A DNA stretch of 39,543 nucleotides, taken from a virus. This document shows, piece after piece, positions 19,565 through 39,543 of this stretch. The stretch's first letter is position 1. Each line of letters begins with the position of its first letter. The stretch covers positions 1-39,543 of IMG/VR virus record IMGVR_UViG_3300021389_000057. One strand, 5' to 3'. Below the pieces are notes generated by a model, which was not told where the DNA came from, did not search any database, and saw only the letters and a list, made by a program, of their open reading frames with translations. A program made the position numbers and the translations under genes.

Positions 19565-19752
19565 TGTACTGGGCAGTTTGGGAAGAGTGGGGCACCAACT
19601 ATCGCAGATATGCGGAAGCTGAAACCCGCGAGGGGATTGATCAAAAGATCCTGACTAGGAGTGTGTATCCAGCAAAGAAACACACTATTCAAATTTTTGT
19701 AAAGTCTGAGGAGACAACCAATGAAACTATCACAAGCACAAACCATCGTTGA
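19564..19752 (+). CDS. Small hydrophilic protein, 62 aa
   Basis: 62 residues from the ATG at 19564. It starts MYWAVWEEWGTNYRRYAEAE, then a basic strand-like segment KKHTIQIFVKSEETTNETIT. The gene overlaps the upstream membrane peptide by one base and the MoxR gene by 32 bases, so it is coupled to both. Not recognised. Confidence 0.5.
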   Translation: MYWAVWEEWGTNYRRYAEAETREGIDQKILTRSVYPAKKHTIQIFVKSEETTNETITSTNHR

Positions 19753-20758
19753 GAGTTCAATCAACTTCAACATGGATCTGTCCGATGGGCGTGATGCTCA
19801 GTACATCGTACCAATGTTGATCGGCGGCGCTGGCCTTGGCAAGACAACCATGGTCAAAGAAGCAACTGCCAGTGTATCAGAAAAGCGCGGGGTTCCAATG
19901 GAATGCCGCATTGTTTCGCTGGCGCAGTATGACCCGACAGAAATTGCGGGTTGGACAATCCCTTCAGAGGATCGCAGCCACATGGTGCGGATGCGTCCAG
20001 ACTGGATGCCAACAGATGGCTACGGCGTCATCTTTTTGGATGAGCTACCGCAAGCAATTGTGGCGTGTCAGAACATTGCAGCGCAGATCACAAACGAGCG
20101 CCGTGTGGGGCCGCATCACTTGCCTGATGGCTGGGTTGTGGTTGCCGCTGGTAACCGCATGTCAGATCGCGCTGGTACAAATCAGATGCCTTCCCACTTG
20201 AAGGATCGCATGATGTTCTTGGAGATCGAAGCGGATCTTGATGATACGCTGGCATACTTCAACTCTGTGGGTGTTGATTTTCGCGTCAACTCTTTCCTGC
20301 GCTTTCGCCCTGAGTACCTGCACAAGTTCGACAGGGATGCCAATGCTTGCCCGTCACCGCGTTCATGGGAGCGTGTTGGTTCGATCCTGTCATGGGGTCT
20401 TGATCCTGTGTGCCAGCTTGAGGCTATCGCTGGGCAGGTTGGTCGCGCAGCCGCTGCCGATTTCAATGGGTTCTTAAAAATCCATGAGACGTGCCCCGAC
20501 ATTGACGCATTGATCTCAGATCCCATGGGATCCGATATCGCGGAAGATCCAGCCGTTGCCTACGCGATCACGGCAAACCTTGCGTTCCGCATGACAGACA
20601 AGAACGCGCATAACATCATCAAGTATTTGATGCGCTTGCCACAGAAAGAGTTCGCTGTGTTCTGTGTCAAGGATGCGCTGAGCCGCAACAAAGATCTCAA
20701 GAAGGTCAAAGCTGTGCGCGATTGGATCATGACAGAAGGTCGTCACATGATCCTGTAA
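19721..20758 (+). CDS. MoxR-family AAA+ ATPase
   Basis: 345 residues. Walker A GGAGLGKTT (residues 35-43), Walker B VIFLDEL (Asp107-Glu108), sensor 1 VAAGNR, and an arginine-finger region PSHLKDRM, followed by a helical lid. A YDPTEIAGW stretch between Walker A and B fits the MoxR group (AAA_5). MoxR ATPases act as chaperones that remodel proteins together with VWA-domain partners, and the partner gene lies just downstream (21038-22168). GGAGA precedes the ATG. Followed by the dispersed palindrome and a hairpin. Confidence 0.8.
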   Translation: MKLSQAQTIVESSINFNMDLSDGRDAQYIVPMLIGGAGLGKTTMVKEATASVSEKRGVPMECRIVSLAQYDPTEIAGWTIPSEDRSHMVRMRPDWMPTDGYGVIFLDELPQAIVACQNIAAQITNERRVGPHHLPDGWVVVAAGNRMSDRAGTNQMPSHLKDRMMFLEIEADLDDTLAYFNSVGVDFRVNSFLRFRPEYLHKFDRDANACPSPRSWERVGSILSWGLDPVCQLEAIAGQVGRAAAADFNGFLKIHETCPDIDALISDPMGSDIAEDPAVAYAITANLAFRMTDKNAHNIIKYLMRLPQKEFAVFCVKDALSRNKDLKKVKAVRDWIMTEGRHMIL

Positions 20759-20759
20759 A

Positions 20760-20773
20760 AGTTCAATAGAACT
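20760..20773. repeat. Dispersed 14-bp palindrome, perfect copy
   Basis: AGTTC-AATA-GAACT directly after the MoxR stop codon, flanked by A and T runs that extend the symmetry. Confidence 0.85.
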
Positions 20774-20778
20774 TTTTT

Positions 20779-20798
20779 GGGTAGGCCTAGACCTACCC
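20779..20798 (+). other. Hairpin after palindrome
   Basis: 7-bp stem GGGTAGG/CCTACCC with a 6-base loop, five bases after the palindrome. No T-run follows; the six T lie before it. Confidence 0.55.
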
Positions 20799-20839
20799 AC
20801 AACCAATTTTTGTAACCTTGAACTTCTTTGGAGAAACCT

Positions 20840-21025
20840 ATGAGTGATGCCGTTCTAATGAACGTCTATGAAATTTTTGTTGAGGAGAGACAAGTTTTCT
20901 CCTTGGAAGTCGAGGCCCTGACAGCCGACGATGCGTTAAAAGAAGTCGAAGAGAGATATCGACAGAATTATTTAAAGTTTAAACGCGATGCCAAAGCTCA
21001 CGATGGCACCGTAGATTTTTTGTAG
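20840..21025 (+). CDS. Small acidic protein between MoxR and VWA genes, 61 aa
   Basis: 61 residues from the ATG at 20840 (GGAGA upstream; the in-frame TTG at 20828 precedes it). MSDAVLMNVYEIFVEERQVF leads to SLEVEALTADDALKEVEERY: two strands followed by an amphipathic helix, a small alpha/beta unit. Ends KAHDGTVDFL. It sits between the ATPase and its presumed VWA partner, so it may be a third subunit or adaptor of that machine. No family recognised. Confidence 0.55.
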   Translation: MSDAVLMNVYEIFVEERQVFSLEVEALTADDALKEVEERYRQNYLKFKRDAKAHDGTVDFL

Positions 21026-21037
21026 AGGAGAGTTCAG

Positions 21038-22168
21038 ATGGATGAACAAACAAAAGTATCGCGCTCTATCACGCGCCTTGTGATATCGCACCCGTTCTTT
21101 GGGTCAATGGCCCTGAGCCTCAAGATTGAGGCTGATGAAGAGATCTCAACCATGTGCACTGATGGCAAGTTCATCAAGTGGAACCCTGACTTTGTGGCAA
21201 ACATGTCAGAAGAGGAGACCACTGGGGTGATGGCGCATGAAGTCATGCATGTTGGCATGAAGCACAACCTGCGGCGCGGTGATCGTGACCCAGAGCGTTG
21301 GAACATTGCATGTGACTATGTGATCAACCCCATCCTGATTGAGGCTGGGTTCTCGCTTCCCGCTGGCGGCTTGTATGACGAGCAGTATGCAGATCTTCCC
21401 GCTGAGCGTGTCTATGACATGCTGCCAGAGGACGTGTCGCACCTGTCACAGGCTGGTGGCATGGGCGGGGTGATAGATACCACCAAAGAGGGTGGACAGT
21501 CGCTGTCTGAGGCTGAGGTTAAGCAGATGGAAGCCGACATCAACTCCAAGGTCATGATGGCTGCGAATGGTGCCAAGTCTGTTGGCAAGCTGCCAGCATC
21601 CATTGAGGCACTGGTGCAGCGCATGAAGCGCAACCAGATTGACTGGGAAGAGAAGGTGCAGCGTTTCGTAGGTGGTGATCAGCCTGATGACTACTCAATG
21701 CGCCGCCCTAATCGTCAGATGTTCGATCAGGTTGGGGTGCTTGGCCCTAGCATTGTGGGCACTGGTTGCGGTGACATCCTTGTGTGGATGGACAGTAGCG
21801 GATCTGTGTCTGATCGTGAAGGTGAGTTCTTCTTGGGTGGGCTGAATGCAATCAGTCGTGACGTGAAGCCCAAGTCAATTACGGTGATCACATGTGACGC
21901 TGAGATCCAGAGCGTCAAGCGTTATGAAGAGGGCGAAGAGATCACCCTGTTCAGCAACAAAGGTCGTGGCGGTACATGTGTGCAGCCTGTGTTCAACTAC
22001 ATTGAGCAGCACAATCTCAATGTGGATAACATGATCTGCTTCACCGACATGGGGATCTTTGACTACCCAGATCGTGCACCAGACTACCCAATCTTGTGGG
22101 TGTCTTCATATTCTCGCGGCAAACCTGCACCGTTTGGCGAGACAGTTTACCTAAACACGGGGGATTAA
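21038..22168 (+). CDS. HExxH metallopeptidase-like protein with VWA domain (DUF2201-like)
   Basis: 376 residues. The N-terminal domain has HEVMH (residues 67-71), the HExxH zinc-binding motif, followed by RWNIACDYVINPILIEAGF, the layout I recall for DUF2201 N-terminal metallopeptidase-like domains. A helical linker (residues about 150-230) precedes a C-terminal VWA domain with DILVWMDSSGSVSD (MIDAS DxSxS at 252-256) and VITCDAEIQS. Encoded 279 bp after the MoxR ATPase. Known MoxR-VWA pairs insert cofactors or remodel complexes; whether the HExxH is proteolytic is not known. The phage target is unknown. Confidence 0.8.
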   Translation: MDEQTKVSRSITRLVISHPFFGSMALSLKIEADEEISTMCTDGKFIKWNPDFVANMSEEETTGVMAHEVMHVGMKHNLRRGDRDPERWNIACDYVINPILIEAGFSLPAGGLYDEQYADLPAERVYDMLPEDVSHLSQAGGMGGVIDTTKEGGQSLSEAEVKQMEADINSKVMMAANGAKSVGKLPASIEALVQRMKRNQIDWEEKVQRFVGGDQPDDYSMRRPNRQMFDQVGVLGPSIVGTGCGDILVWMDSSGSVSDREGEFFLGGLNAISRDVKPKSITVITCDAEIQSVKRYEEGEEITLFSNKGRGGTCVQPVFNYIEQHNLNVDNMICFTDMGIFDYPDRAPDYPILWVSSYSRGKPAPFGETVYLNTGD

Positions 22169-22169
22169 A

Positions 22170-22409
22170 ATGACCAACGAAATTAAATTTCTAATGGAGA
22201 TGTTTGAGATGCATGTCTCTTACATCATGGATGCAAACCAAGATCTCTCATATGATGAGGCACATGCTATCGCATGGGAGCATGGCAAAGATGGGCTGCT
22301 GCGATATCTTGATGCAGATATCAACACCAAATCTGAGCTAACCTCAATGATAAGGCATCGAAGAGACAACGATCCTGCTGGAGAGGGGAGATACAATCAT
22401 GATAGCTGA
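22170..22409 (+). CDS. Hypothetical acidic helical protein, 79 aa
   Basis: 79 residues: MTNEIKFLMEMFEMHVSYIM, DANQDLSYDEAHAIAWEHGK, then a polar C-terminus GEGRYNHDS. Helical and acidic, with no membrane segment or catalytic motif. It starts one base after the VWA stop and overlaps the endolysin start by eleven bases; its last codons contain the endolysin ribosome-binding site (GGGGAG). Unrecognised. Confidence 0.5.
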   Translation: MTNEIKFLMEMFEMHVSYIMDANQDLSYDEAHAIAWEHGKDGLLRYLDADINTKSELTSMIRHRRDNDPAGEGRYNHDS

Positions 22410-22845
22410 ACTTTGCTTGGCACTGGCAGTGTACCATGAGGCCAGAGGCGAACCACTGATAGGGCAGAAGGCTGTTGCTGAGGTGGTGATGAACCGTGTT
22501 GCATCAGATAGGTTCCCAGACACGATATGCGGGGTTGTGATGCAGCCTAAACAGTTTTCGTTTGTCAGCCCTAATGGATGGGCTGGCATACCCACAGACC
22601 CAGACGTGTGGGCTGATGCTGTGAACATATCGCAAGATGCGATAGGCAATCATCTTGATGGTCAATCATATTTTGCCAACAAGGGAATGCTGTATTATCA
22701 TTCTACTGAGGTCAGCTTAGTGTGGACTAAAAGTTTATTTGAACTTTTTACCTTGGGGAACCACACATTTTACTCTGACCCTCTGACAAAAACCAACAAG
22801 CCAAGGGAGAGACCTGTTGGAGATACAATTAGAGAGGATGATTGA
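22399..22845 (+). CDS. Endolysin: SleB/CwlJ-type cell wall hydrolase
   Basis: 148 residues. LALAVYHEARGEPLIGQKAV, then AEVVMNRVASDRFPDTICGV, is the start of the Hydrolase_2 (SleB/CwlJ) lytic transglycosylase-like family, with Glu14 in YHEARGE as the expected catalytic acid. QFSFV and later YYHSTEVSLVW and HTFY complete the fold. These domains cut peptidoglycan and serve as endolysins in many alphaproteobacterial phages. No signal peptide is seen, so a holin would be needed. It is encoded in the early operon, unusual for a lysis gene. A one-mismatch palindrome copy (22732-22745) lies inside. Confidence 0.75.
   Translation: MIAELCLALAVYHEARGEPLIGQKAVAEVVMNRVASDRFPDTICGVVMQPKQFSFVSPNGWAGIPTDPDVWADAVNISQDAIGNHLDGQSYFANKGMLYYHSTEVSLVWTKSLFELFTLGNHTFYSDPLTKTNKPRERPVGDTIREDD
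22732..22745. repeat. Dispersed palindrome, one mismatch
   Basis: AGTTT-ATTT-GAACT inside the endolysin gene. Confidence 0.5.
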
Positions 22846-27310: not shown

Positions 27311-28219
27311 ATGAAAATAACAAATAATTACGGGCTTCCTGACCCGTTCATGAACTTTGTCAGGAACGATAAGTACACAAGAGGCAAGGCTGATATCAGT
27401 GTGACTACGCTGATCGACAGTCCTCGCATCAGGTTACTTGTTGATGATCACAAGGATAAACTGGAGTCAGATCTTGTTGATATGATCTGGCCTATCTTTG
27501 GAACGGCAGTGCATTCTGTTTTAGAAAGTTCAATAGAACAAAAAAATACCATAGTGGAAGAGCGTCTATACGCATCCTGTAATGACTGGACTTTATCAGG
27601 TGCGCTTGATCATCAAGAGATCCTTGAGGATGGACGCATTAGGGTAACTGATTACAAGGTTACATCCGTCTGGTCTGTAATCCATGGTAAAAAAGAATGG
27701 GAGTATCAACAGAATTGCTACGCTTGGTTACTCAGGCAGAATGGCAAGGACGTTGAGAGCATTAGGATCTGTGCAATCTTGAGGGATTGGCAGAAGCGCA
27801 AGGCTGCAACAGATGGTGACTATCCTAGCGCACCTGTTGTCATCATTGATCTTCCATTGTGGACGCGGGATGAGTGTCAGAAATATGTAGAGGAAAGAAT
27901 GTCTCTGCATCAAGAAGCGCAAATCAATTATGATATCCATGATGAACTGCCCCTGTGTTCAGAAGCAGAGAAGTGGGAGCGCCCAACAACCTACGCTGTA
28001 ATGGCGAAGGGTAAGAAGAGAGCCATCAGGGTTTTGGATACTCAGTTTGAGGCTGATGCCTACCTTGAAGGATTTAAATCAACCAGTGCGTTGAACCCAA
28101 AAGATTTAACCATCGAAACCAGAAAGGGTGAGAAGGTTAGGTGTAGTGGCTACTGTTCAGTGTCACATTTATGCGATCAGTATTTGAAGGAGAGTGAGGA
28201 AAATGACTACAGCAATTAA
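27311..28219 (+). CDS. RecB/Cas4-like PD-(D/E)XK exonuclease
   Basis: 302 residues. Nuclease core: His68 in GTAVHSV, Asp100 in GALDHQE, Asp114-x-Lys116 in VTDYKV and a QxxxY box (Gln133-Tyr137), as in RecB/Cas4-type nucleases. Four Cys (216, 278, 282, 288; the last three in RCSGYCSVSHLCD) could hold an iron-sulphur cluster as in Cas4 and AddB, though the first Cys is later than usual. Probably the 5'-3' exonuclease that feeds ssDNA to the annealing protein three genes later. A one-mismatch palindrome (27527-27540) lies in the coding sequence. GGAG upstream of the ATG. Confidence 0.75.
   Translation: MKITNNYGLPDPFMNFVRNDKYTRGKADISVTTLIDSPRIRLLVDDHKDKLESDLVDMIWPIFGTAVHSVLESSIEQKNTIVEERLYASCNDWTLSGALDHQEILEDGRIRVTDYKVTSVWSVIHGKKEWEYQQNCYAWLLRQNGKDVESIRICAILRDWQKRKAATDGDYPSAPVVIIDLPLWTRDECQKYVEERMSLHQEAQINYDIHDELPLCSEAEKWERPTTYAVMAKGKKRAIRVLDTQFEADAYLEGFKSTSALNPKDLTIETRKGEKVRCSGYCSVSHLCDQYLKESEENDYSN
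27527..27540. repeat. Dispersed palindrome, one mismatch
   Basis: AGTTC-AATA-GAACA in the nuclease gene; only the outermost base differs. Confidence 0.6.
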
Positions 28220-28574
28220 GAGATATTTATCTGAGCATAATATAAAGCAGACAGACATGGCGAAGCAGCTTGGTATTAACCCTGCAACCATGTCTAAGAT
28301 AGTCAGAGGTGAAAGAATGCCTCGCATAGATGTTGTAGAGCGCATTGAGATCGCTACCTATGGCGATGTAGGGCCACGTCACTTCTATAAAAATCCAGAT
28401 GTTTGGAGTGAAGTGTCAAAGCTAGAAGATGCTAAGTGGGCAAAGGCAAATATTGATAGGAAAAAAAGTGCAGAGTTAGAGGATGCCAGCTTTGAAGAGG
28501 ATTTAAATGATGATTTAATTCCGTTTCAAGAGTTGTCCTCTTGGGGTAAACTGAAACGGTTGTTTGGGGGTTAG
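28203..28574 (+). CDS. XRE/Cro-type helix-turn-helix regulator
   Basis: 123 residues from the ATG at 28203, overlapping the nuclease gene. The N-terminal HTH is clear: AIKRYLSEHNIKQTDMAKQL, GINPATMSKIVRGERMPRID (about residues 4-43), as in Cro/CI-family repressors. The C-terminal two-thirds is acidic and polar and lacks a recognisable self-cleavage domain, so it is not a LexA/CI-type autoprotease. Candidate binder of the dispersed AGTTC-N4-GAACT palindrome. Placement inside the recombination operon would let it shut early transcription down. Target unproven. Confidence 0.75.
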   Translation: MTTAIKRYLSEHNIKQTDMAKQLGINPATMSKIVRGERMPRIDVVERIEIATYGDVGPRHFYKNPDVWSEVSKLEDAKWAKANIDRKKSAELEDASFEEDLNDDLIPFQELSSWGKLKRLFGG

Positions 28575-28576
28575 CA

Positions 28577-29320
28577 ATGGCTAAGAAAACTGTATGGGAA
28601 ACACTCAGAAGTATTGATGTATCTGAGTATACCAAAAAGAAAAACGGCATGACCTATCTATCATGGGCACATGCTTGGGGTGCATTAAAAGATGTATATC
28701 CAGATGCCACGTTTGAAAAGCATGTAGAGGAAGGCAACATTCCTTACATGATTGACGTTCATGGGTTTGCTTATGTGCGTGTTACTGTAACTGCCAGTGG
28801 CGAAAGTGCTACTGAACTTTTCCCTGTGCTGGATTACAAGAACTCGCCAATTAAAAACCCTAATGCTTTTCAGATCAACACGGCCCATCAACGTGCTATG
28901 ACGAAGGCCATGGGTTATCTGGGTTTAGGTCATTACATCTATGCGGGTGAAGACTTGCCGCCAGATGATGGGGTAGAGCCACAGAAACCAGCCGCTGCGG
29001 TTAAAGTTGATCGTGAATTTCAAGAGATTAATGCAAAGAAGCCAAAGGCTAAACCCGCTTCACCACCGCCCTCAGCAACTGAGACGTCATCGGGTGACGT
29101 GAAGAAGAATGCGTCTGAGGAAAACTGGGATACCACCAAAGCCTTAATATCTGAAGTGGTTAAAGCTTCATCTGATATACAGTGGCTGAATGGTGTGTAT
29201 CGAAAGAACCTTGGTCCGATCAATCAACTCAAGGACAATAGTCCAAAGTTGTATGAAGAGTTAATGAATGACTTTTCAAAACGTAAATCTGAACTCAATT
29301 CAAAAGGAGATCAATCATGA
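28577..29320 (+). CDS. Sak3-like single-strand annealing protein (DUF1071 type)
   Basis: 247 residues. TVWETLRSIDVSEYTKKKNG, then MTYLSWAHAWGALKDVYPDA, is the characteristic opening of DUF1071/Sak3-type annealing proteins (Rad52-like superfamily). VRVTVTASG and INTAHQRAMTKAMGYLGLGH complete the core by about residue 120. The C-terminal half is Lys/Ala/Pro-rich linker plus a final helix. It anneals single strands produced by the nuclease encoded upstream. Starts two bases after the regulator stop. A one-mismatch palindrome (28805-28818) lies in it. Confidence 0.75.
   Translation: MAKKTVWETLRSIDVSEYTKKKNGMTYLSWAHAWGALKDVYPDATFEKHVEEGNIPYMIDVHGFAYVRVTVTASGESATELFPVLDYKNSPIKNPNAFQINTAHQRAMTKAMGYLGLGHYIYAGEDLPPDDGVEPQKPAAAVKVDREFQEINAKKPKAKPASPPPSATETSSGDVKKNASEENWDTTKALISEVVKASSDIQWLNGVYRKNLGPINQLKDNSPKLYEELMNDFSKRKSELNSKGDQS
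28805..28818. repeat. Dispersed palindrome, one mismatch
   Basis: AGTGC-TACT-GAACT in the annealing-protein gene; carries the recurrent T to G variant of the left half. Confidence 0.45.
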
Positions 29321-30346: not shown

Positions 30347-33300
30347 TTATATTCCCTGAGCAATCATTATGCCCTGACGGGTTATTATCTTTCTTTGCTC
30401 GACAAGTTGCTTGACGATGCGATCCTTCTCATCTTGCGGCAAACGTGAATCATTCACTGCCGTAATCTGCTGAGAGATCTTCCGTCTTGCTGATTCAATC
30501 TTCTTGATTTGCGGAGCAATCCTAAGCTCTGCCTCAAACCTAGACACGGCACTGTTGATGCGGTCCACGTCACCACGCTGAGCGGCCTTCTTGTACTCAG
30601 CCGTTGCCCTGTTCACCTGATCACGGACCTCAATGTATTGAGACACGTCATCCCTGCTGGACACGCTTCGTAAAACTCTACGCATGAACGGGATCTCAGT
30701 GGCAATATCCTCTGCGGATTCTGCGGCAGCTATTCTTGCTGGTGCTTCAGCGGTACGTTGCACAAACCTACCAGCGCCGCCCGTAATATAATCAAACCAG
30801 AACTCCAAAGAGTTTGGTGACCAATCAATCCACCCACTCAGTGTCTCAGTCCCACCCGTCAACTCATTAAGAGCCTGTGTTATGCCAACTGCTGTCGGAG
30901 AAGTGTTGTTCCAGTACAAGCTGCTTTGTGATGCCACCTGATTTGGGAATGCCTTCTTAACAATATCTCTGCCAGAGAAGTCTGTGTTGGTTCCGTACAG
31001 TGAGATGAAGGGATCAAACACAGTGGGTGCTGCGAAGTTCAAGAAGCTTTCAGTACCACCTAGCGGGTTGAATATCTCAAGGGTTGTGCGCCCAATAGAT
31101 GCTCCAATCTCTGATGGATCTGATCTGCCCTGAGCCATCTTGGCAAAGTTGCGCCCGACATTGTGGAATGCGTTCATGCCGTATGGCATTGGTATGGAAA
31201 CATACCCACGTCCAAAAGGATCCATCACATCTGGCAACATGAATACCATGTTGTGTTCCAGAATATAGTCTGGGATCTTGTCGTACTGCTTTACTCCATC
31301 CTCATCCTCATCTGACATCATTGAGTTAATTATGTCTTGCGTAAAGCCAACAGCTATAACGCCACCCATGATATTGCGAACCTTCTTGGAGCGAGCCAAT
31401 GATCTCAACAGGAAGAAGCTGCCCTGCAAGGACGCATTGTAGAATAGGTACAGTGAGTTCAAGAATGCCTTGTTGTCACCACCCTTGCCAAAGTCTACGG
31501 TCACACTCCTTGCGGCCTGTGCTGCTCTCTCCTTGGACACGCCACGCTTAACCAGAGCGTCATAGGTGCTAACACGAATGGCGTTTTCAACCACAAGGTT
31601 TGAATTATCCATGAACTCTAAGAGCTTCTTACCTTTGGCCTTCATCAGCCCAAGCTTACCGCTTGCATCAGAGATGTCTGACAGTGTGGATTGAAGATCA
31701 GATATCTGATCTTGTAGTGTGGTCATTGGGTTGGCAGCACTTGCACCGCCGTATGATCTGAACTCTTTGTATATCTTTGCCCACTCAGAAGAATCATCTT
31801 TGTTTAAGATGGATCTCTTTAGGCCTTTTGCTGCCTTCAAAACATTTCTAATCGTGTCTTTTCTCAGGCCATCCATTTCAAACTCACTGACCTGTATGCC
31901 AGCGGCTTGAACGTCACGAATGAAGTTGGAGATAAAGAACTCTGGGTTCCAAGATGTGTTAATGTTTGACAGGTATCTGTTTACCTTAGCCAAACCTCTG
32001 GTGATTGTGGCAGCGTTGCCAGCATCCCAAATGTTTTCCCCGTTGAACGCACCCGCCAAGTTGTTGTCATAGAACTGAAGGACTTTCTCTTCTCCGTTCT
32101 CTTTTACAATGGCGATTGATGGGTCATCACGATAGGTTCTCGTCGGCTTGATAACAACCGCACCGTTCTGCATTACGCGGGCTGATGGTGGTTGATCTAG
32201 GATCTCAGCATATCCAGACATGCCTTGAGGGTTTGATCTAACTAGATCAAGCATAGACTTACCAACCTTGTTGCGCTCGCCACGAACAATAGAGTTTGTA
32301 TTTTGCAGGATGGTGCTTGCCAAAATATCTCTGCCGTATGACCTACGACCTAAAGCCCTTTGATCTTCTCTGCCCATAGCTCCATATCTGGATGGCTTGC
32401 CGCTGCCGTAGATTCCCTCTTGGTCAACTTCAAAGTGACCCTTGAGTGGAACATAGAAATCAAAGTTGCTGTCTTCCATGTCGCCTATCTTCATGTCGCT
32501 TGACTGTAGACCAGCCGCAACACGAACAGCGTTGGTATCATCCACGATAGAGCGAACAGCATCCTCAGCCTGACGCAAAGCTATTTTGTTTTGCGGGTCA
32601 AGGCTATCAAACCAGTTGAGTATTGCATCAGCCTCTGCATCAGTCATACCTGAGCCAGCATCATTGGTGGGGTCCACCGTTCTGATGTACGCGTTTCTCT
32701 CCTTGGCATGTTTTGCATAGAGATAAGTATCTACGGCGGATAAAGCTTTTGACTTTGTTCCCTCAAACGTGAACTCAGCAAGGCCTTTACCACCACCAGA
32801 GTTGGCATTTGATAGTGCCTTTAGCTGATCAACCTGCTGCTCTGTGATGTTCATGTTTTTGACAGCATCAGTGGCAGCTTTATAAATTGTTTCCTTGCGC
32901 TCAGTAATCTTACTGCCAGCAATACCTTCGCTCAGTTGCTGCTTCAGATATGGGTCCATGCTATCAGCGATCTTATACTGAGGATTTATCTCCTTCAGTT
33001 CTTTGATCATTCTGCCAACAGGAATAAAGCTGTCCTGTGTTTTCTGAATAAATAAATCTGCTCTCTTCTGTGCCTTTGTCTTGTCGGTGAAGGGCACCAA
33101 GCGCAGAGCTTTGCCAAGCCAGTCAGCGATATCAGTGTAGCGTGTTACACGATCCGCTTGCATCGCGTCTAGACCTGTGCCGCTTACAGTGTTCAATGCG
33201 CTCAGTTTGATCTGGCTGTTGCGGATCTTTTTGCGATCCTTCTTATCCATGACTGGGAAGAATGTCTTGACGTAGTACGGACCGTTGCCGCTGTTACGCT

Positions 33301-36300
33301 TGCCACGCTCAAGGACAAGGCGCAGGGGTGGGCTTTTAGCCATGCGGTTATCGAACCACTCCAAAACCAAGTTGCCTCCTGACGGGTACGCTACAACGCT
33401 GTCACCGTCCTGATAGCCTTGGCTCTTCCATCTGTGCAGTGTGTCGTAGATGGCTTTCTCTACTCGCTTGTACCCTGAGTTCTCTACAAGCTCCTTGTCG
33501 TGCAGTCTTTGCTGTATGTGATAGAGACCACCGCCGTTATCAAACTGGTCATTGCTTCCCTCAGTAAGAAGGACGGGGATAACCTCACCATCAGTTTCCT
33601 GTATGCCGCCATATATAATGTCAGTCAGAGTGCCAGTTCGTTTGACTGGAGTTCTGATTGCTTTGTATGGATCAATAGGTATTTGAGAAAGCTTCTGTGG
33701 TGGAAGTTCATTTGAACTTTCTACACCTTCCATCGTTGACAGATCTACGTCTGCCTCTGTGATGAATGGCGCTGCCTCTAGTGCTAGTTCTCTAGGGGCG
33801 AAGAAGTCTCCCTCTGCAATCGTTGGCTTAACTGCATCAACGCTTCCGCTAACCGATCCATCTCCTTCTCGTTGAGCGATGATACCAGCGAGTCTTCCTC
33901 GCTCTGTTGCGGGGAGTGAATTTTTGATTTTGTCATCGCCTATACCTTTGTTTTTCAGGATGTTCAGGGCACCGTCAGCATAATCGTTGTCATCGCCACG
34001 GCCTTTACGGACACCACCAGCTTCAAACAAACGCTTCTCAGCATACCACATAAGGGCTTGGAAATCAGCATTAGTTATATCAACGCCAGCCTCATCCTTG
34101 AGGATCTGTCTTGCACGATTAGCAACCTCACGCATTGCGGTCCTGTCCTGTGCGTTGCGAGGATCCTCTTGTAGAGTTGGGATTAGCTTCTTCTGATATG
34201 TTTCAGTGGCTCTCAGGAAGGCTGTCTTTGACGGACGTGATGCAGCCGCAAGAGACTTAACGGTTGCAGCGTCTCGACCAACAGGGGTTTTGCTTTTGTT
34301 TAGACTGAACTCATACTGACCAGATGTAAGTAAGTCTTCAACGGTATCCTTATATGCCTTCGTGTAATGATCTCTATTCCAGATCTTACCAATCTCAGGG
34401 GCAATCAGAGGTATGTCTGTCTTGTCCATTGTGGATATGTTAAGTTTTCTTTGTGCTTCAAAGAGAATATTTCTATCCATGTCTGTCAGTGGTTGATCTG
34501 CCTCAGTAATAAAGTTCCAAACAGTATCAAGGTTCTGCTCTACCAGCTCGTCTGCATATTTTACTGTAGGGTTACCAGTGATGCGGTTAGCAAAGCGCAT
34601 CCACCATCTATCCATAGTTAGAGGATCGTAGTTGCCTCTAAGGTTTTGATAGAAACCGTTGCCAATCTTTGGACCCAGTATGTAGGCCACAGATACCATT
34701 GTGTTAGCTTCTTCAGCGCCACTAGCTTGGAACTCTTTGGGCAAGTCCTTAACCCTATCGACCCCAAGAACATCAACCATTGTTTTGTTGAGATCTTTCT
34801 TTGGCATCTGCATGGTTAGCAAAGCCTCAATCTCATTTGATGACATACCTTTGCGGCTCAGTGTGTTCCAAAACTCAAAGGCAGATAGCATAGATCCACC
34901 TTGAGCGCCTGATCCCTTGACTGGGAAGGTGCCACTATCACTAGCCTTCCAAGCATCATACTGCTCAGATGCGAACCTGTAGTTGTCTATAACTGACAAA
35001 CCATTTGATGTGATGGCAGTGGCAAAGTCAAAGGCATGTTCTGCTGCTGGGTCATACTCAGAGTTTGGAGAACCGTCAGGCCTCTCCGGTGAGACCTCTG
35101 GATACACAGGGAACAACACACGCTTAGCCAGCTTGAGTGTAGAGTCATACCAACCAAGGGCATCACTGCCAGAGATCAATGCTGCCTCAGCTTCAGCCGC
35201 CATGATCCTTGCTGCGTCTTGCTTGTCACGCTCTGAATTTATTATGTCCAAAGGAGCTACGTTACGCAGGCCAAGAAGTTTCTCAGCAAAGCTAACTAAT
35301 GTCTCTGAGCCTTCTTTCTTTTTAAATTGAGGCTGCCCCGTTTTTGGATTAAGGTAATCAAGTATACTTGCATCACGTTGGGCTGGCGTCAGTGGAACTC
35401 TTGATGTCTTAATTCCAGAAGCAGCCCTATCTATATCTCCAAAGGCTGATTCTACCTGATCTGTTAGTCTTGTTCTTGCAGTATCTGATTGACCATTGAT
35501 TTCATTATCGGACTCAACTCGCGTAGTTCCTCGTTTGAAAGGATCGAATCTAGATCCAACAAGGGGGTTGTTTCCTGAGACTTTTGTAACTGACTTGGGT
35601 TCATTGACCCCGCCATTGTTGTCGATTTGCGCGTAGCCATCTGCAATTCCATCTTGTTTTAATTTTTCAAAGACTTTTGTAGGATTGTCTCTGATAGAAT
35701 CAAAGTAACCTATCGGAATGATTCTGCCAGTGTTTACAAACCTGCCAATCATTCTGGAATATGCTTCTTCTGGAGCAACATCCATGTTGACTAGATTTAC
35801 CTTATATCCTTTTTCCTTTAATTTGTCAATTAACTGGACAATACTTTTTGACTTGTCGCCCACCTTTGGGATCATGATGTTAGTGCCGCGAGACATCATT
35901 AACTCATATAGGCCAGAAACAAGATCAGAACTTTCCTCATGTACAGCCGCAGCGCCTATGCCACCTTCATACTCAGGAAGTGATTTCTTGATCTCATCAG
36001 AATCCGCAATGGCAAATCCTTTTGATGTTGCCAGTTCATTAGCTATCGTGGACTTTCCTGATGCTGGTGGGCCAACAAGAATTATTGCTTCTCTATTTTT
36101 AGGAATGGGCTTGGGTTGCAGACCCATCTCCACAAATCCTAGTTGCTCTGCCTGTCTTTCAAATGCTCGTAAAGCATTGGGGGTTCCCATAACCCTTTCA
36201 CCGTTTACTAGATATGTCCTAGTGTTATGCCAGTTTTCGCTATTATAATCGGGGCGAAGATTTGTTTGTTCTCTTTGATTCATTTGGCTTACGACAGAAG

Positions 36301-38833
36301 ATATAGACGGGTGCATGTCTATTTGCTGTCGTGGTGGATTGGTTTGAAACAGAGAGCTTAGGTCATTTATGGAATCTCTTATCTCCTTTGGGAGACTTGC
36401 GGGTATTCTTGACTGCCTTGCAGTGGTTACTTCTGTGCGTGATGTCGGGGTCTGTGTGACTGTGGTTACAGGAGCGCGATCAGCAACACTGCCAGCACCA
36501 ATGCCACCGAATATAGCACCAACATTATTAAAGCCATTGTCAACATGTGCCCCTACGATTGACCTAAAGAAGTCACCTATCCGCTTTAACAAAGGTCTAG
36601 ATGTTCCAACATTCTTCAATCTGCCAGCAGTGAAGTCACGATACATCTCTGCAATCGCTTCCTCTTCAACAGCAGACATCCTACCTTTGTCTCCCTTCTG
36701 ACCGACAAGCTCACCGTTAAGCCTACCAGCGCGGTCTAAGTAGGAGTAAGATCTCTTCTTGCCCTCTGGATTTACAAACTTTGTCTTCTTGGCAGCTTTC
36801 TTTAGGAGATTTATTTCTTTAGGTGTGAAGACATTCATGTCCACAATCGCGTGTACTGCTTCGTGATTCATTACTTCAGCAACGCTATTGGTGTAGTCAG
36901 CGTCAGATAGTGAAGGATCGTATACACCAAGAGCCAAGGTGATTGCTTTCTCTTCGCTCATTGGATCGAACTGACCCTCTACCAGACTATCTTGACTGCC
37001 AATAACCTTCTGACCCTTGAGGCCAACACGCTTGAGACCCATCTTGTCCAGACGTTCTCTCAAGTTATTCATCACAGCCTCTTCACGCTGTGTGTACTCA
37101 GGCTTCTTTTCAACTTGCTCTTTGCTAAGGCCATCGAAGATGGTTCTGGTTTCACCCCTCTTCTCAGCCGCCTGAAGTTGTGGTCCTATCTCTGCCTTCA
37201 GTTGCTCAGGGGTAACTTTACCGGGTATTGATTCGATTTTCTCAGAAGCTTGAACTTTATAGTCATCTGGCAAAGTAACTAACTTCTGTTGGTTCGATTC
37301 GAGCCTTGCGTTTAATTTGTTCAATTGAACTTTTTTATTATCAAGAGCAGCCTGAACTTCTTCAGCCTTTACTGCATTACCCCGCGTGTCTTTACCTGTC
37401 TGGGTTGCATACCTTAAATCCAATTCAAGTTGTGGTATATCCTTGGCAATTTTGTTTGCCTTAACCACAACATTTGCGCTGTCACGTCTGACGTTGTCCA
37501 GCGCATTCTCTGCCATCTTCGTGGGTGGTGTGACAGTATATCTGTCAGTCTTTGCACGTTGGCTTTTGGATATCACACCCTGTGTAGTAAGTGAGTCTCT
37601 GGCTTGCTTGATCAGACTATCTGTCTGCTTCTGAGTTTCCCCTGAGAGACCAGATTTTTGCAGAGCAATCCTAGCCTTTGGAAACTTTAGCTCACCCTCA
37701 ACACGCATAGATGAAAGCACGACATCAGCCGCACGATTAACCAACTGATCTTCTGGGGTGGCTGTCGGTGCGGGTAATGCTAACTGAACCTGTGGCTCAG
37801 GTGCTGACAGTATTTCATCAACCTCTTTAACCTCTTGCTCTGTTTGTTCCAATCCATATGCAAGCCTTGTTCTTGCCACCTCTCCCAGTTTGGTGAGGTC
37901 TTCATCCAGTTCCTTGGATACTTTATCGGTATCAACGGTGGGAGATACCAAGCCAGCAGCAGAACCTATTGTTCCACCGACTACCGCTCCAGAAGCAAAT
38001 GCTTCTTCGTATTCCTTTAAGGCATCTTCATCAAACAAATCTTGTCCAGCTTGCGCCCTGTTTACCATGCTTTGAGAAACTTCTTGAAGACCCTCAAGTC
38101 CACCAGCTTGCCCGCCTTCCATCAAAACTTTTCTGGCACGGCCCGCATCAACTGGCTTGATAAACTTACCAATGACAAAGTAATCAATTAAGAACTCAGA
38201 AGCTGCATTAATGGCAGTTGCTCCACCCGCTCTTAGAATGCTGGTATCCATACCAGCTTCCTCTTGTTTATTGATTGCTTCAGCAAACATCTGAGGTAGA
38301 GCCTTGACCGTTGTGTATCCAACACCCGCAGCCCTAGTAATACCTGCTCCGACTGGGCCAAATGGGAGGCCAGCTAACGTGGCTCCAGCTTGTATAGCTG
38401 TATCTTTAGCCTCACTGCCCAACGCCTCACCAGCGAAGCTTGCTGCTGATGATAGATCATTTACATCATCGTACCTTACAGATGGATCTTCAGCCTCAAG
38501 TCTTTGTAATTCTGCCAGTGCATTTTTTTGTTGCTCTTGTGCTGCCTCAGCGTCCAAGCCAAACATTTTGCCAACAAATGTATCTGCAAGAACCTCTTTT
38601 GTTTTGCCTTGAGCAAGTTGATTTTCATAGGGTTCTCTTTCAAGACCCCGCATGAAGGCAGTTTTGTCTTCCTCTTCTGGCTCAGGTGGTTGAACTGCAA
38701 CAGGTGCTTGATCACGCTTCGATACAAGGAAGTCGTTTATCTGTTGCTGTTCATTCTCAGTGGGTTCTGTTCCAGAGATGTTTACTGAGTAGTCAATTCC
38801 TGTCTGAGGATCTTTGACAAATATTACAGACAT
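30347..38833 (-). CDS. Giant polyvalent virion protein: HExxH, Zeta-type kinase, RNase-like and LPD38 domains
   Basis: 2,828 residues, about 21% of the window. GAGGA precedes the ATG. In order: acidic N-terminus; Gly/Ala-rich hydrophobic segments (about 140-300) that could enter membranes; coiled coil (about 440-560); HEAVH (657-661) with a downstream acidic helix EEEAIAEMYRDF, a zincin-like peptidase; Zeta-toxin/UDP-GlcNAc kinase-like domain with GPPASGKST (921-929) and DSDEIKK; a conserved polyvalent-protein segment around 1400 (NYDPLTMDRWWM); an RNase-like region (about 1750-1860, LYHIQQRLHDKELV); LPD38-like C-terminal region (about 2100-2480, TVDFGKGGDNKAFLNSLYLF). Polyvalent proteins of this type are thought to be injected with phage DNA to counter host functions. 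Confidence 0.8.
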   Translation of the reverse strand: MSVIFVKDPQTGIDYSVNISGTEPTENEQQQINDFLVSKRDQAPVAVQPPEPEEEDKTAFMRGLEREPYENQLAQGKTKEVLADTFVGKMFGLDAEAAQEQQKNALAELQRLEAEDPSVRYDDVNDLSSAASFAGEALGSEAKDTAIQAGATLAGLPFGPVGAGITRAAGVGYTTVKALPQMFAEAINKQEEAGMDTSILRAGGATAINAASEFLIDYFVIGKFIKPVDAGRARKVLMEGGQAGGLEGLQEVSQSMVNRAQAGQDLFDEDALKEYEEAFASGAVVGGTIGSAAGLVSPTVDTDKVSKELDEDLTKLGEVARTRLAYGLEQTEQEVKEVDEILSAPEPQVQLALPAPTATPEDQLVNRAADVVLSSMRVEGELKFPKARIALQKSGLSGETQKQTDSLIKQARDSLTTQGVISKSQRAKTDRYTVTPPTKMAENALDNVRRDSANVVVKANKIAKDIPQLELDLRYATQTGKDTRGNAVKAEEVQAALDNKKVQLNKLNARLESNQQKLVTLPDDYKVQASEKIESIPGKVTPEQLKAEIGPQLQAAEKRGETRTIFDGLSKEQVEKKPEYTQREEAVMNNLRERLDKMGLKRVGLKGQKVIGSQDSLVEGQFDPMSEEKAITLALGVYDPSLSDADYTNSVAEVMNHEAVHAIVDMNVFTPKEINLLKKAAKKTKFVNPEGKKRSYSYLDRAGRLNGELVGQKGDKGRMSAVEEEAIAEMYRDFTAGRLKNVGTSRPLLKRIGDFFRSIVGAHVDNGFNNVGAIFGGIGAGSVADRAPVTTVTQTPTSRTEVTTARQSRIPASLPKEIRDSINDLSSLFQTNPPRQQIDMHPSISSVVSQMNQREQTNLRPDYNSENWHNTRTYLVNGERVMGTPNALRAFERQAEQLGFVEMGLQPKPIPKNREAIILVGPPASGKSTIANELATSKGFAIADSDEIKKSLPEYEGGIGAAAVHEESSDLVSGLYELMMSRGTNIMIPKVGDKSKSIVQLIDKLKEKGYKVNLVNMDVAPEEAYSRMIGRFVNTGRIIPIGYFDSIRDNPTKVFEKLKQDGIADGYAQIDNNGGVNEPKSVTKVSGNNPLVGSRFDPFKRGTTRVESDNEINGQSDTARTRLTDQVESAFGDIDRAASGIKTSRVPLTPAQRDASILDYLNPKTGQPQFKKKEGSETLVSFAEKLLGLRNVAPLDIINSERDKQDAARIMAAEAEAALISGSDALGWYDSTLKLAKRVLFPVYPEVSPERPDGSPNSEYDPAAEHAFDFATAITSNGLSVIDNYRFASEQYDAWKASDSGTFPVKGSGAQGGSMLSAFEFWNTLSRKGMSSNEIEALLTMQMPKKDLNKTMVDVLGVDRVKDLPKEFQASGAEEANTMVSVAYILGPKIGNGFYQNLRGNYDPLTMDRWWMRFANRITGNPTVKYADELVEQNLDTVWNFITEADQPLTDMDRNILFEAQRKLNISTMDKTDIPLIAPEIGKIWNRDHYTKAYKDTVEDLLTSGQYEFSLNKSKTPVGRDAATVKSLAAASRPSKTAFLRATETYQKKLIPTLQEDPRNAQDRTAMREVANRARQILKDEAGVDITNADFQALMWYAEKRLFEAGGVRKGRGDDNDYADGALNILKNKGIGDDKIKNSLPATERGRLAGIIAQREGDGSVSGSVDAVKPTIAEGDFFAPRELALEAAPFITEADVDLSTMEGVESSNELPPQKLSQIPIDPYKAIRTPVKRTGTLTDIIYGGIQETDGEVIPVLLTEGSNDQFDNGGGLYHIQQRLHDKELVENSGYKRVEKAIYDTLHRWKSQGYQDGDSVVAYPSGGNLVLEWFDNRMAKSPPLRLVLERGKRNSGNGPYYVKTFFPVMDKKDRKKIRNSQIKLSALNTVSGTGLDAMQADRVTRYTDIADWLGKALRLVPFTDKTKAQKRADLFIQKTQDSFIPVGRMIKELKEINPQYKIADSMDPYLKQQLSEGIAGSKITERKETIYKAATDAVKNMNITEQQVDQLKALSNANSGGGKGLAEFTFEGTKSKALSAVDTYLYAKHAKERNAYIRTVDPTNDAGSGMTDAEADAILNWFDSLDPQNKIALRQAEDAVRSIVDDTNAVRVAAGLQSSDMKIGDMEDSNFDFYVPLKGHFEVDQEGIYGSGKPSRYGAMGREDQRALGRRSYGRDILASTILQNTNSIVRGERNKVGKSMLDLVRSNPQGMSGYAEILDQPPSARVMQNGAVVIKPTRTYRDDPSIAIVKENGEEKVLQFYDNNLAGAFNGENIWDAGNAATITRGLAKVNRYLSNINTSWNPEFFISNFIRDVQAAGIQVSEFEMDGLRKDTIRNVLKAAKGLKRSILNKDDSSEWAKIYKEFRSYGGASAANPMTTLQDQISDLQSTLSDISDASGKLGLMKAKGKKLLEFMDNSNLVVENAIRVSTYDALVKRGVSKERAAQAARSVTVDFGKGGDNKAFLNSLYLFYNASLQGSFFLLRSLARSKKVRNIMGGVIAVGFTQDIINSMMSDEDEDGVKQYDKIPDYILEHNMVFMLPDVMDPFGRGYVSIPMPYGMNAFHNVGRNFAKMAQGRSDPSEIGASIGRTTLEIFNPLGGTESFLNFAAPTVFDPFISLYGTNTDFSGRDIVKKAFPNQVASQSSLYWNNTSPTAVGITQALNELTGGTETLSGWIDWSPNSLEFWFDYITGGAGRFVQRTAEAPARIAAAESAEDIATEIPFMRRVLRSVSSRDDVSQYIEVRDQVNRATAEYKKAAQRGDVDRINSAVSRFEAELRIAPQIKKIESARRKISQQITAVNDSRLPQDEKDRIVKQLVEQRKIITRQGIMIAQGI
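33705..33718. repeat. Dispersed 14-bp palindrome, perfect copy
   Basis: AGTTC-ATTT-GAACT inside the giant gene; one of two perfect copies overlapping coding sequence (the other covers the adaptor start codon at 2005). Confidence 0.8.
37319..37332. repeat. Dispersed palindrome, one mismatch
   Basis: TGTTC-AATT-GAACT inside the giant gene; only the outermost base differs. Confidence 0.6.
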
Positions 38834-38855
38834 AGTATTTCCTCATTGATCAAGA

Positions 38856-39543
38856 CTACGGATTAACTGTTTGTACGTTAGCTAACTGCGGGTATGCCAT
38901 ACCCTTGTACTTATTTATTTCGCTTATGAGAATATTTGCTTGCATTTGTTTTTCTGCTAACTGCTCTGGAGTGAATGGTGTTACCTGACCATAATCTCCC
39001 AGTGTACCTTTTCTAGCAATGTCTGCCTGTAGTGAGTTTAATTCTTTACGTAAATCACCAGCTTCTCTGAGCAATCCAACTCTCTCTGTTCCTGTCATTG
39101 CCTTTGGTCTGTTGGCTTTAGCTAAAGCTGCCGCTCTGGAAAGACGTGAGCTTCTTGCTTTCTCTTCGAGACCCATCAGGCCAAGGATATCTGCATCGTA
39201 TTGGCTCTTAGCCTTCCTCAGTGCGCCTACACCAGCAAGACCAGCCTCACCAAGGGCACCACCAAGTGTTGGGTTCTTAGATGCCATCAATGCCATACCA
39301 GTCTGAGCAAGTGCCATCCATTTGTCTGACTCCCTATCAGCCTCTCTGTCTGAAAGCATTTGCGCTATGCGAGCTTCCAGTCCTGTAGCTGCGCCACCAG
39401 TGGTAGCAACACCACCGCCACCGCCACCACCACCGCCACCGCCACCATCATCTAGTGTAGCAGCGGTAACGACATTACCTGTTGAAGCTGGGAATGATGC
39501 AATACCTTGCTCTAATGCAGTAACATCACTCAAAGTCGGTGTG
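38856..39543 (-). CDS. Virion-type protein with 12-glycine run (5' end beyond window)
   Basis: The frame is open to the right edge, so the start may lie outside; a TTG at 39533 is the last possible start inside. At least 225 residues: a small-residue N-terminus, twelve consecutive Gly (coded by 39411-39446), then helices LEARIAQMLSDREADRESDK and MALAQTGMALMASKNPTLGG, a charged coil (EEKARSSRLSRAAALAKANR), and a C-terminal region RKELNSLQADIARKGTLG. Helical, Ala/Gly-rich proteins next to polyvalent giants are commonly internal virion proteins ejected at infection. That role is inferred from context. Confidence 0.55.
   Translation of the reverse strand, partial: TPTLSDVTALEQGIASFPASTGNVVTAATLDDGGGGGGGGGGGGVATTGGAATGLEARIAQMLSDREADRESDKWMALAQTGMALMASKNPTLGGALGEAGLAGVGALRKAKSQYDADILGLMGLEEKARSSRLSRAAALAKANRPKAMTGTERVGLLREAGDLRKELNSLQADIARKGTLGDYGQVTPFTPEQLAEKQMQANILISEINKYKGMAYPQLANVQTVNP
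39411..39446 (-). repeat. Trinucleotide GGY repeat coding for 12 Gly
   Basis: Twelve glycine codons (only GGT and GGC used) in the 38856-39543 gene. A simple repeat able to change length by slippage. Confidence 0.8.

Follow-up and report, generated by a model that had tools for sequence, protein, structure and literature searches.

Polyvalent proteins that combine MPTase, zeta, RelA/SpoT and PBECR domains, and that show mosaicism, have been described (Iyer et al., 2017; PMC5512222; what we take from this paper and from PMC6356619 refers to the accessible parts of their texts). Because such combinations have been published, the protein analysed here belongs to a known kind. Like the proteins of Iyer et al., it is a giant multidomain polypeptide with an MPTase-like domain, a zeta kinase, a BECR-like domain and LPD38 parts, but the accessible text of that study places zeta domains in MuF fusions as well as in conjugative elements. 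In temperate phages, MuF toxins are polymorphic at the C-terminus, with RelA-like domains among the variants (PMC5576092). They resemble our protein as phage proteins with interchangeable toxin-type domains, RelA-like and ART domains included (PMC5576092), whereas the C-terminal variability, the N-terminal MuF domain and the putative immunity ORFs of these toxins were not seen in the giant protein system. The kinase shares with the Zeta/PezT toxins (1gvn) its family, the Walker lysine, the catalytic aspartate and one arginine. It differs from them at the positions of Glu116 and Thr118, in being embedded in a giant protein, and in that no antitoxin gene was found to be exchanged along with it. 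The domain alternating with the kinase has the predicted fold of small alarmone synthetases (RelQ/RelP, Tas1, CapRel), but unlike theirs its sequence lies beyond the reach of the Pfam RelA_SpoT model.

For an internal slot that alternates between a zeta-type kinase and a synthetase fold in near-identical phages, we found no description in the accessible portion of the open-access literature. What is new here is the finding that phages exchange the kinase as a cassette within a polyvalent protein. What polyvalent proteins do at entry has been a question since their first description, and pairs of near-identical phages that are mainly one cassette apart are a ready-made experiment on it. The alternation of the two folds in one slot also points to a shared class of targets.

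The giant reading frame and its domains

The window comprises 39,543 bases of a marine phage and spans an entire IMG/VR virus record. The giant ORF runs as one uninterrupted frame from 38833 to 30347 on the minus strand behind a good ribosome-binding site, and relatives keep it at full length with 37–96% identity. Since an open frame of 8.5 kb far exceeds chance and is conserved over its full length, we regard the ORF as real, as a reading of the sequence alone (hereafter the sequence-only reading) had proposed for a single frame of 2,828 residues. The ORF, its neighbor and the domains outside the kinase region are as follows:

30347–38833, minus strand: polyvalent protein ORF, 2,828 aa, with an ATG start and a GAGGAA ribosome-binding site at 38839–38844
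38856–39542, minus strand: upstream gene, truncated by the end of the contig so that its C-terminal part remains
37214–38833, minus strand: mostly helical N-terminal region, residues 1–540
36479–37111, minus strand: zincin-like metallopeptidase domain, residues 575–785, delimited by the relatives' alignment and the secondary structure of the model
36851–36865, minus strand: HEAVH, residues 657–661
36632–36667, minus strand: EEEAIAEMYRDF, residues 723–734, likely the helix with the third zinc ligand
33779–35398, minus strand: conserved helical core domain, residues 1146–1685, with a weak resemblance to DUF7178
33224–33631, minus strand: BECR-like (RNase-like) domain, residues 1735–1870, with invariant His and Thr
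30350–33139, minus strand: conserved C-terminal region, residues 1899–2828, PHROG 14770/616
30686–31288, minus strand: LPD38 domain, residues 2516–2716

Sister phages carry a longer version of the upstream gene, also directly upstream of the giant ORF; the part present in the window has no PHROG match. As this right-hand gene extends further in the sisters, the record is incomplete, and a circular record was rejected on the same ground. The terminase (14–16 kb), portal (10–12 kb) and capsid (6–7 kb) genes lie on the same strand as the giant ORF, and these head and packaging genes are far from it within the record. Homologues of the C-terminus occur in Shiga-toxin phages, and a further one in a Ruegeria phage is flanked by genes mostly without names. 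The contig of a 49% relative (L102:8084-17299) shares a bin with a Porticoccaceae MAG, which hints at a marine gammaproteobacterial host; a binning error could produce the same association.

The LPD38 (E=1e-38) and Zeta_toxin matches both exceed the Pfam cut-offs, and together with the HExxH domain they put several disparate catalytic and LPD domains on one polypeptide, which defines a polyvalent protein. Two earlier proposals, a polyvalent protein with a zeta-type kinase and an LPD38-like C-terminus, are hereby confirmed. No MuF domain was matched by Pfam. PHROGs 14770 and 616 span residues 2030–2816, and neither has a known function. The core at residues 1146–1685 is common to many other phage giant proteins; a profile search of it against PDB gave no useful match, and its matches to DUF7178 are weak.

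In the putative peptidase, the HExxH motif and an EExxAE motif about 60 residues downstream are both invariant in the 19 aligned relatives (19/19). Over residues 575–785, a model of modest confidence predicts a helix, short strands, the HExxH helix and the Glu helix in this order, which is the zincin layout of the polyvalent MPTases (PMC5512222, accessible part). Foldseek with the low-confidence model of the N-terminal region found no match to a solved zincin, Pfam had no match for residues 575–785, and a PDB profile search of the domain returned nothing useful. The MPTase-PolyVal profile (PF18818) matched none of 22 related records, but the positive controls were silent too. The peptidase module that had been proposed is thus supported by the HEAVH motif and the predicted order of secondary structure.

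The BECR-like domain is missing from some relatives. Where it was aligned, both a GL.HI..R.H-type motif and a Thr late in the domain are invariant, and the predicted model of the homologous region in L002, one of the sister phages, has helices followed by four strands. A helix with His, four strands and a late Thr/Ser make up the published BECR/PBECR layout (PMC5512222, accessible part). The region had no match in Pfam, in PDB or by profile–profile comparison. Profiles of PBECR1, PBECR2, PBECR3 and MuF_C, derived from genomes and viral contigs, gave hhalign probabilities below 1%, and we therefore do not class it as a PBECR member. The suggestion of an RNase-like region thus holds for the predicted layout and the invariant His and Thr, but has no statistical match in Pfam, PDB or profiles.

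The zeta-type kinase

Three features describe the kinase:

35609–36100, minus strand: zeta-toxin-type P-loop kinase, residues 912–1075, Pfam PF06414, E=5.5e-19
36047–36073, minus strand: Walker A motif GPPASGKST, residues 921–929
35984–36007, minus strand: ADSDEIKK, residues 943–950, with Asp946 aligned to the zeta catalytic Asp67

The Zeta_toxin model (PF06414) scores 68.8 bits against a curated cut-off of 22.3, and also matches L026, L019, L085 and L079. Searched against PDB, the kinase profile has zeta 1gvn as its best match (E=3.1e-8), and the same profile also matches AvrRxo1 and a polynucleotide-kinase-like protein. Within the kinase family, the glycine and lysine of the P-loop and the Asp pair are invariant. 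By its sequence, membership of the kinase in the zeta family is well supported; the P-loop kinase of the sequence-only reading, recognized there by GPPASGKST and DSDEIKK, is upheld.

Residue pairs with 1gvn were read by hand from the printed profile alignment, with Arg171 falling outside the computed alignment. Lys46 pairs with Lys927, Asp67 with Asp946 and Arg158 with Arg1031, all three being kept, while Glu116 pairs with Pro989 and Thr118 with Val991. In zeta, Glu116 is essential and probably a Mg ligand (PMC6356619, accessible part), and Thr118 contacts UDP-GlcNAc (PMC3062530). Across the phage kinase family, the Glu116 position is Pro or Gln and the Thr118 position mostly Val, and the family has an invariant VHxES motif of its own. 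Because Glu116 aligns to Pro989 and Thr118 to Val991, action on UDP-GlcNAc cannot be assumed, and the earlier assignment of UDP-N-acetylglucosamine as the substrate is not sustained. As for a cognate antitoxin beside the giant ORF, none of the neighboring genes within about 17 kb varies together with the cassette; the HTH gene at 28194–28574 is common to the sisters.

A cassette exchanged between near-identical phages

The kinase lies within a segment that differs between sister phages:

35467–36401, minus strand: exchangeable cassette, 935 bp, about residues 811–1122, unalignable to three sisters

The proteins of these sisters (L002, L003 and L021) align to residues 1–838 and 1103–2828 but not between, and their DNA is about 90% identical to the window over about 17 kb, on both sides of the cassette. 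In bins of 90 bases, the giant gene is mostly 82–100% identical in the flanks and falls to chance level at codons of about 810–1121; exceptions in the variable N-terminal region are residues of about 420–510 in L002 and about 45–330 in L003. In the approximately 17 kb that L002 or L021 has in common with the window (BLASTN pieces of 81–98% identity), positions 35467–36401 are the only gene-sized difference, so no immunity gene was swapped within the compared stretch. L003 is also unalignable at 37910–38696 in the N-terminal region (residues of about 45–310), a second swapped stretch, where L002 and L021 match. Both breakpoints fall in low-confidence linkers predicted to be disordered, and the cassette joins in frame at both ends. 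Its GC content is 42%, versus 47% for the remainder of the gene. The set and order of domains had been thought possibly undescribed; the set is not fixed, as near-identical sisters swap the kinase, and the general architecture is found in PMC5512222 (accessible part). The record also encodes a Sak single-strand annealing protein (28577–29320, E=3.7e-39) and a PD-(D/E)XK nuclease (27311–28219), which together offer a possible recombination route for the exchange.

The sisters hold a different domain in the slot, which has a small alarmone synthetase fold according to AlphaFold and Foldseek. Residues 835–1895 of L002 were modeled with a mean pLDDT of 72, and the model was searched against PDB. 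Each of the top 50 fold matches is a synthetase of the RelA/SpoT type, the best at E=6e-5, and the TM scores normalised to small synthetases are mostly 0.5–0.7. Pfam matched nothing in the L002 cassette, none of 21 virus records reached E≤1 with RelA_SpoT (PF04607) while 12 of 14 control genomes were positive, and the matches of a synthetase-like domain profile in PDB were all weak. Viral matches of the modeled region include proteins already named RelA/SpoT. We thus describe the alternative cassette as a predicted small-alarmone-synthetase-like domain, and it is a family that current Pfam models miss.

The kinase recurs in the same slot of two independent contigs, L026 and L019. Their nearest backbones (L010/L013 and L016–L018, with backbone identities of 90% and 97–98%, respectively) carry the synthetase-like cassette. 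In a tree of core and tail, the three rows with the kinase stand apart, and at least three independent changes between kinase and synthetase are needed. One fixed position alternating between a zeta-toxin-like kinase and a synthetase-like fold in three lineages suggests an exchangeable weapon slot. The slot is almost empty in L020, L027 and L034, and in L036 it holds an ART domain (ART-PolyVal, PF18760, E=6.3e-10). Between lineages, the synthetase cassette is 73–83% identical, the peptidase 40–59% and the tail 33–47%. The high identity of the cassette suggests horizontal transfer, though slower evolution could also give it. The kinase module is also present in unrelated giant phage proteins.

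Two side observations concern these modules. In the more distant relatives L035:12665-13612, L037:6863-8674 and L039:10913-13075, the slot domain resembles gp82 of mycobacteriophage L5 (PF25735, best E=3.3e-7). In L079:6533-9850 and L082:7403-10723, the kinase module is located near the end of giant proteins that have a ParB/DdrB-like stretch, as judged by eye; therefore, the module travels between unrelated scaffolds.

A putative entry enzyme and its alternatives

Our main reading, to which we assign a probability of roughly 55%, is that a modular protein is packaged and injected, and that its kinase or synthetase-like entry-enzyme cassette is swapped by homologous recombination. The protein would be made late, packaged in the particle and enter the host along with the DNA. 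In phages, polyvalent genes are typically neighbors of virion genes, and packaging of their products is predicted (PMC5512222, accessible part); by analogy the giant protein is probably carried in the phage particle, in agreement with the sequence-only reading. Its chain of modules would run from the helical N-terminus through the zincin-like peptidase, the cassette, the conserved core and the BECR-like domain to the LPD38 tail, with the peptidase probably processing the giant chain. At entry, the kinase or the synthetase-like enzyme would act on ATP and nucleotide-type small molecules, and thereby shift host physiology or block a defence. Phages would switch cassettes by homologous recombination via the conserved flanks. 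Given the predicted alarmone synthetase fold of the alternative cassette, the simplest common theme would be an action of both on purine nucleotides or nucleotide signals. Reported effects of zeta toxins include both a drop in purine nucleotides and a stimulation of (p)ppGpp synthesis (PMC6356619, accessible part).

The best-surviving alternative, a real possibility that we hold tentatively, is that the cassette disarms an immune system of the host and that switching tracks the local defence repertoire. A swap between near-identical phages that exchange no other gene is what strong local selection would produce, and polyvalent proteins have been proposed as counter-defence (PMC5512222, accessible part), but a general host-takeover enzyme would show the same pattern. 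Slightly more doubtful is a dedicated exchange site within an injected giant protein, at which the synthetase-like enzyme and a zeta-fold kinase acting on a novel substrate would be functional alternatives, two nucleotide-directed entry weapons between which local host defences choose, no immunity gene being involved.

Classical zeta action, in which the injected kinase would phosphorylate UDP-N-acetylglucosamine and weaken wall synthesis at entry, agrees with the Zeta_toxin match, with 1gvn as best profile match and with the kept equivalents of Lys46, Asp67 and Arg158, and is what Iyer et al. propose for polyvalent zeta domains (PMC5512222, accessible part). We consider it unlikely, given the Pro/Gln and mostly Val at the Glu116 and Thr118 positions, the invariant VHxES found instead, and the profile matches to AvrRxo1 and the polynucleotide-kinase-like protein.

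A polymorphic toxin against competitors or superinfecting phages would have a precedent in the MuF toxins of temperate phages (PMC5576092), with which toxin-type domains (RelA-like, ART and nuclease) are shared, and would fit the ART-PolyVal domain in the slot of L036. However, MuF toxins vary C-terminally and are often followed by a small gene (PMC5576092), whereas the variable segment here lies inside the protein and does not co-vary with any adjacent gene, which makes this improbable. We give as little credence to neutral mosaicism, in which inactive or structural domains are exchanged without function: the almost empty slots and the loss of zeta Glu116 would be expected, but the invariance of HExxH, of the Asp pair and of the glycine and lysine of the P-loop speaks against it, as does the return of the same two alternatives in three lineages. 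An assembly chimera of two metagenomic phages, conceivable for a metagenomic contig whose cassette differs in GC content, is very improbable, as both joins are in frame and two other independent contigs have the kinase in the same slot.

Elsewhere in the window, positions 19721–22168 hold a gene pair in a MoxR–VWA-like arrangement, here in a phage: an AAA-like P-loop ATPase without a Pfam match comes first, and a DUF2201 metallopeptidase/VWA protein (E=1e-48) second. The gene at 22399–22845 encodes a Hydrolase_2-family cell wall hydrolase (E=1.6e-23).
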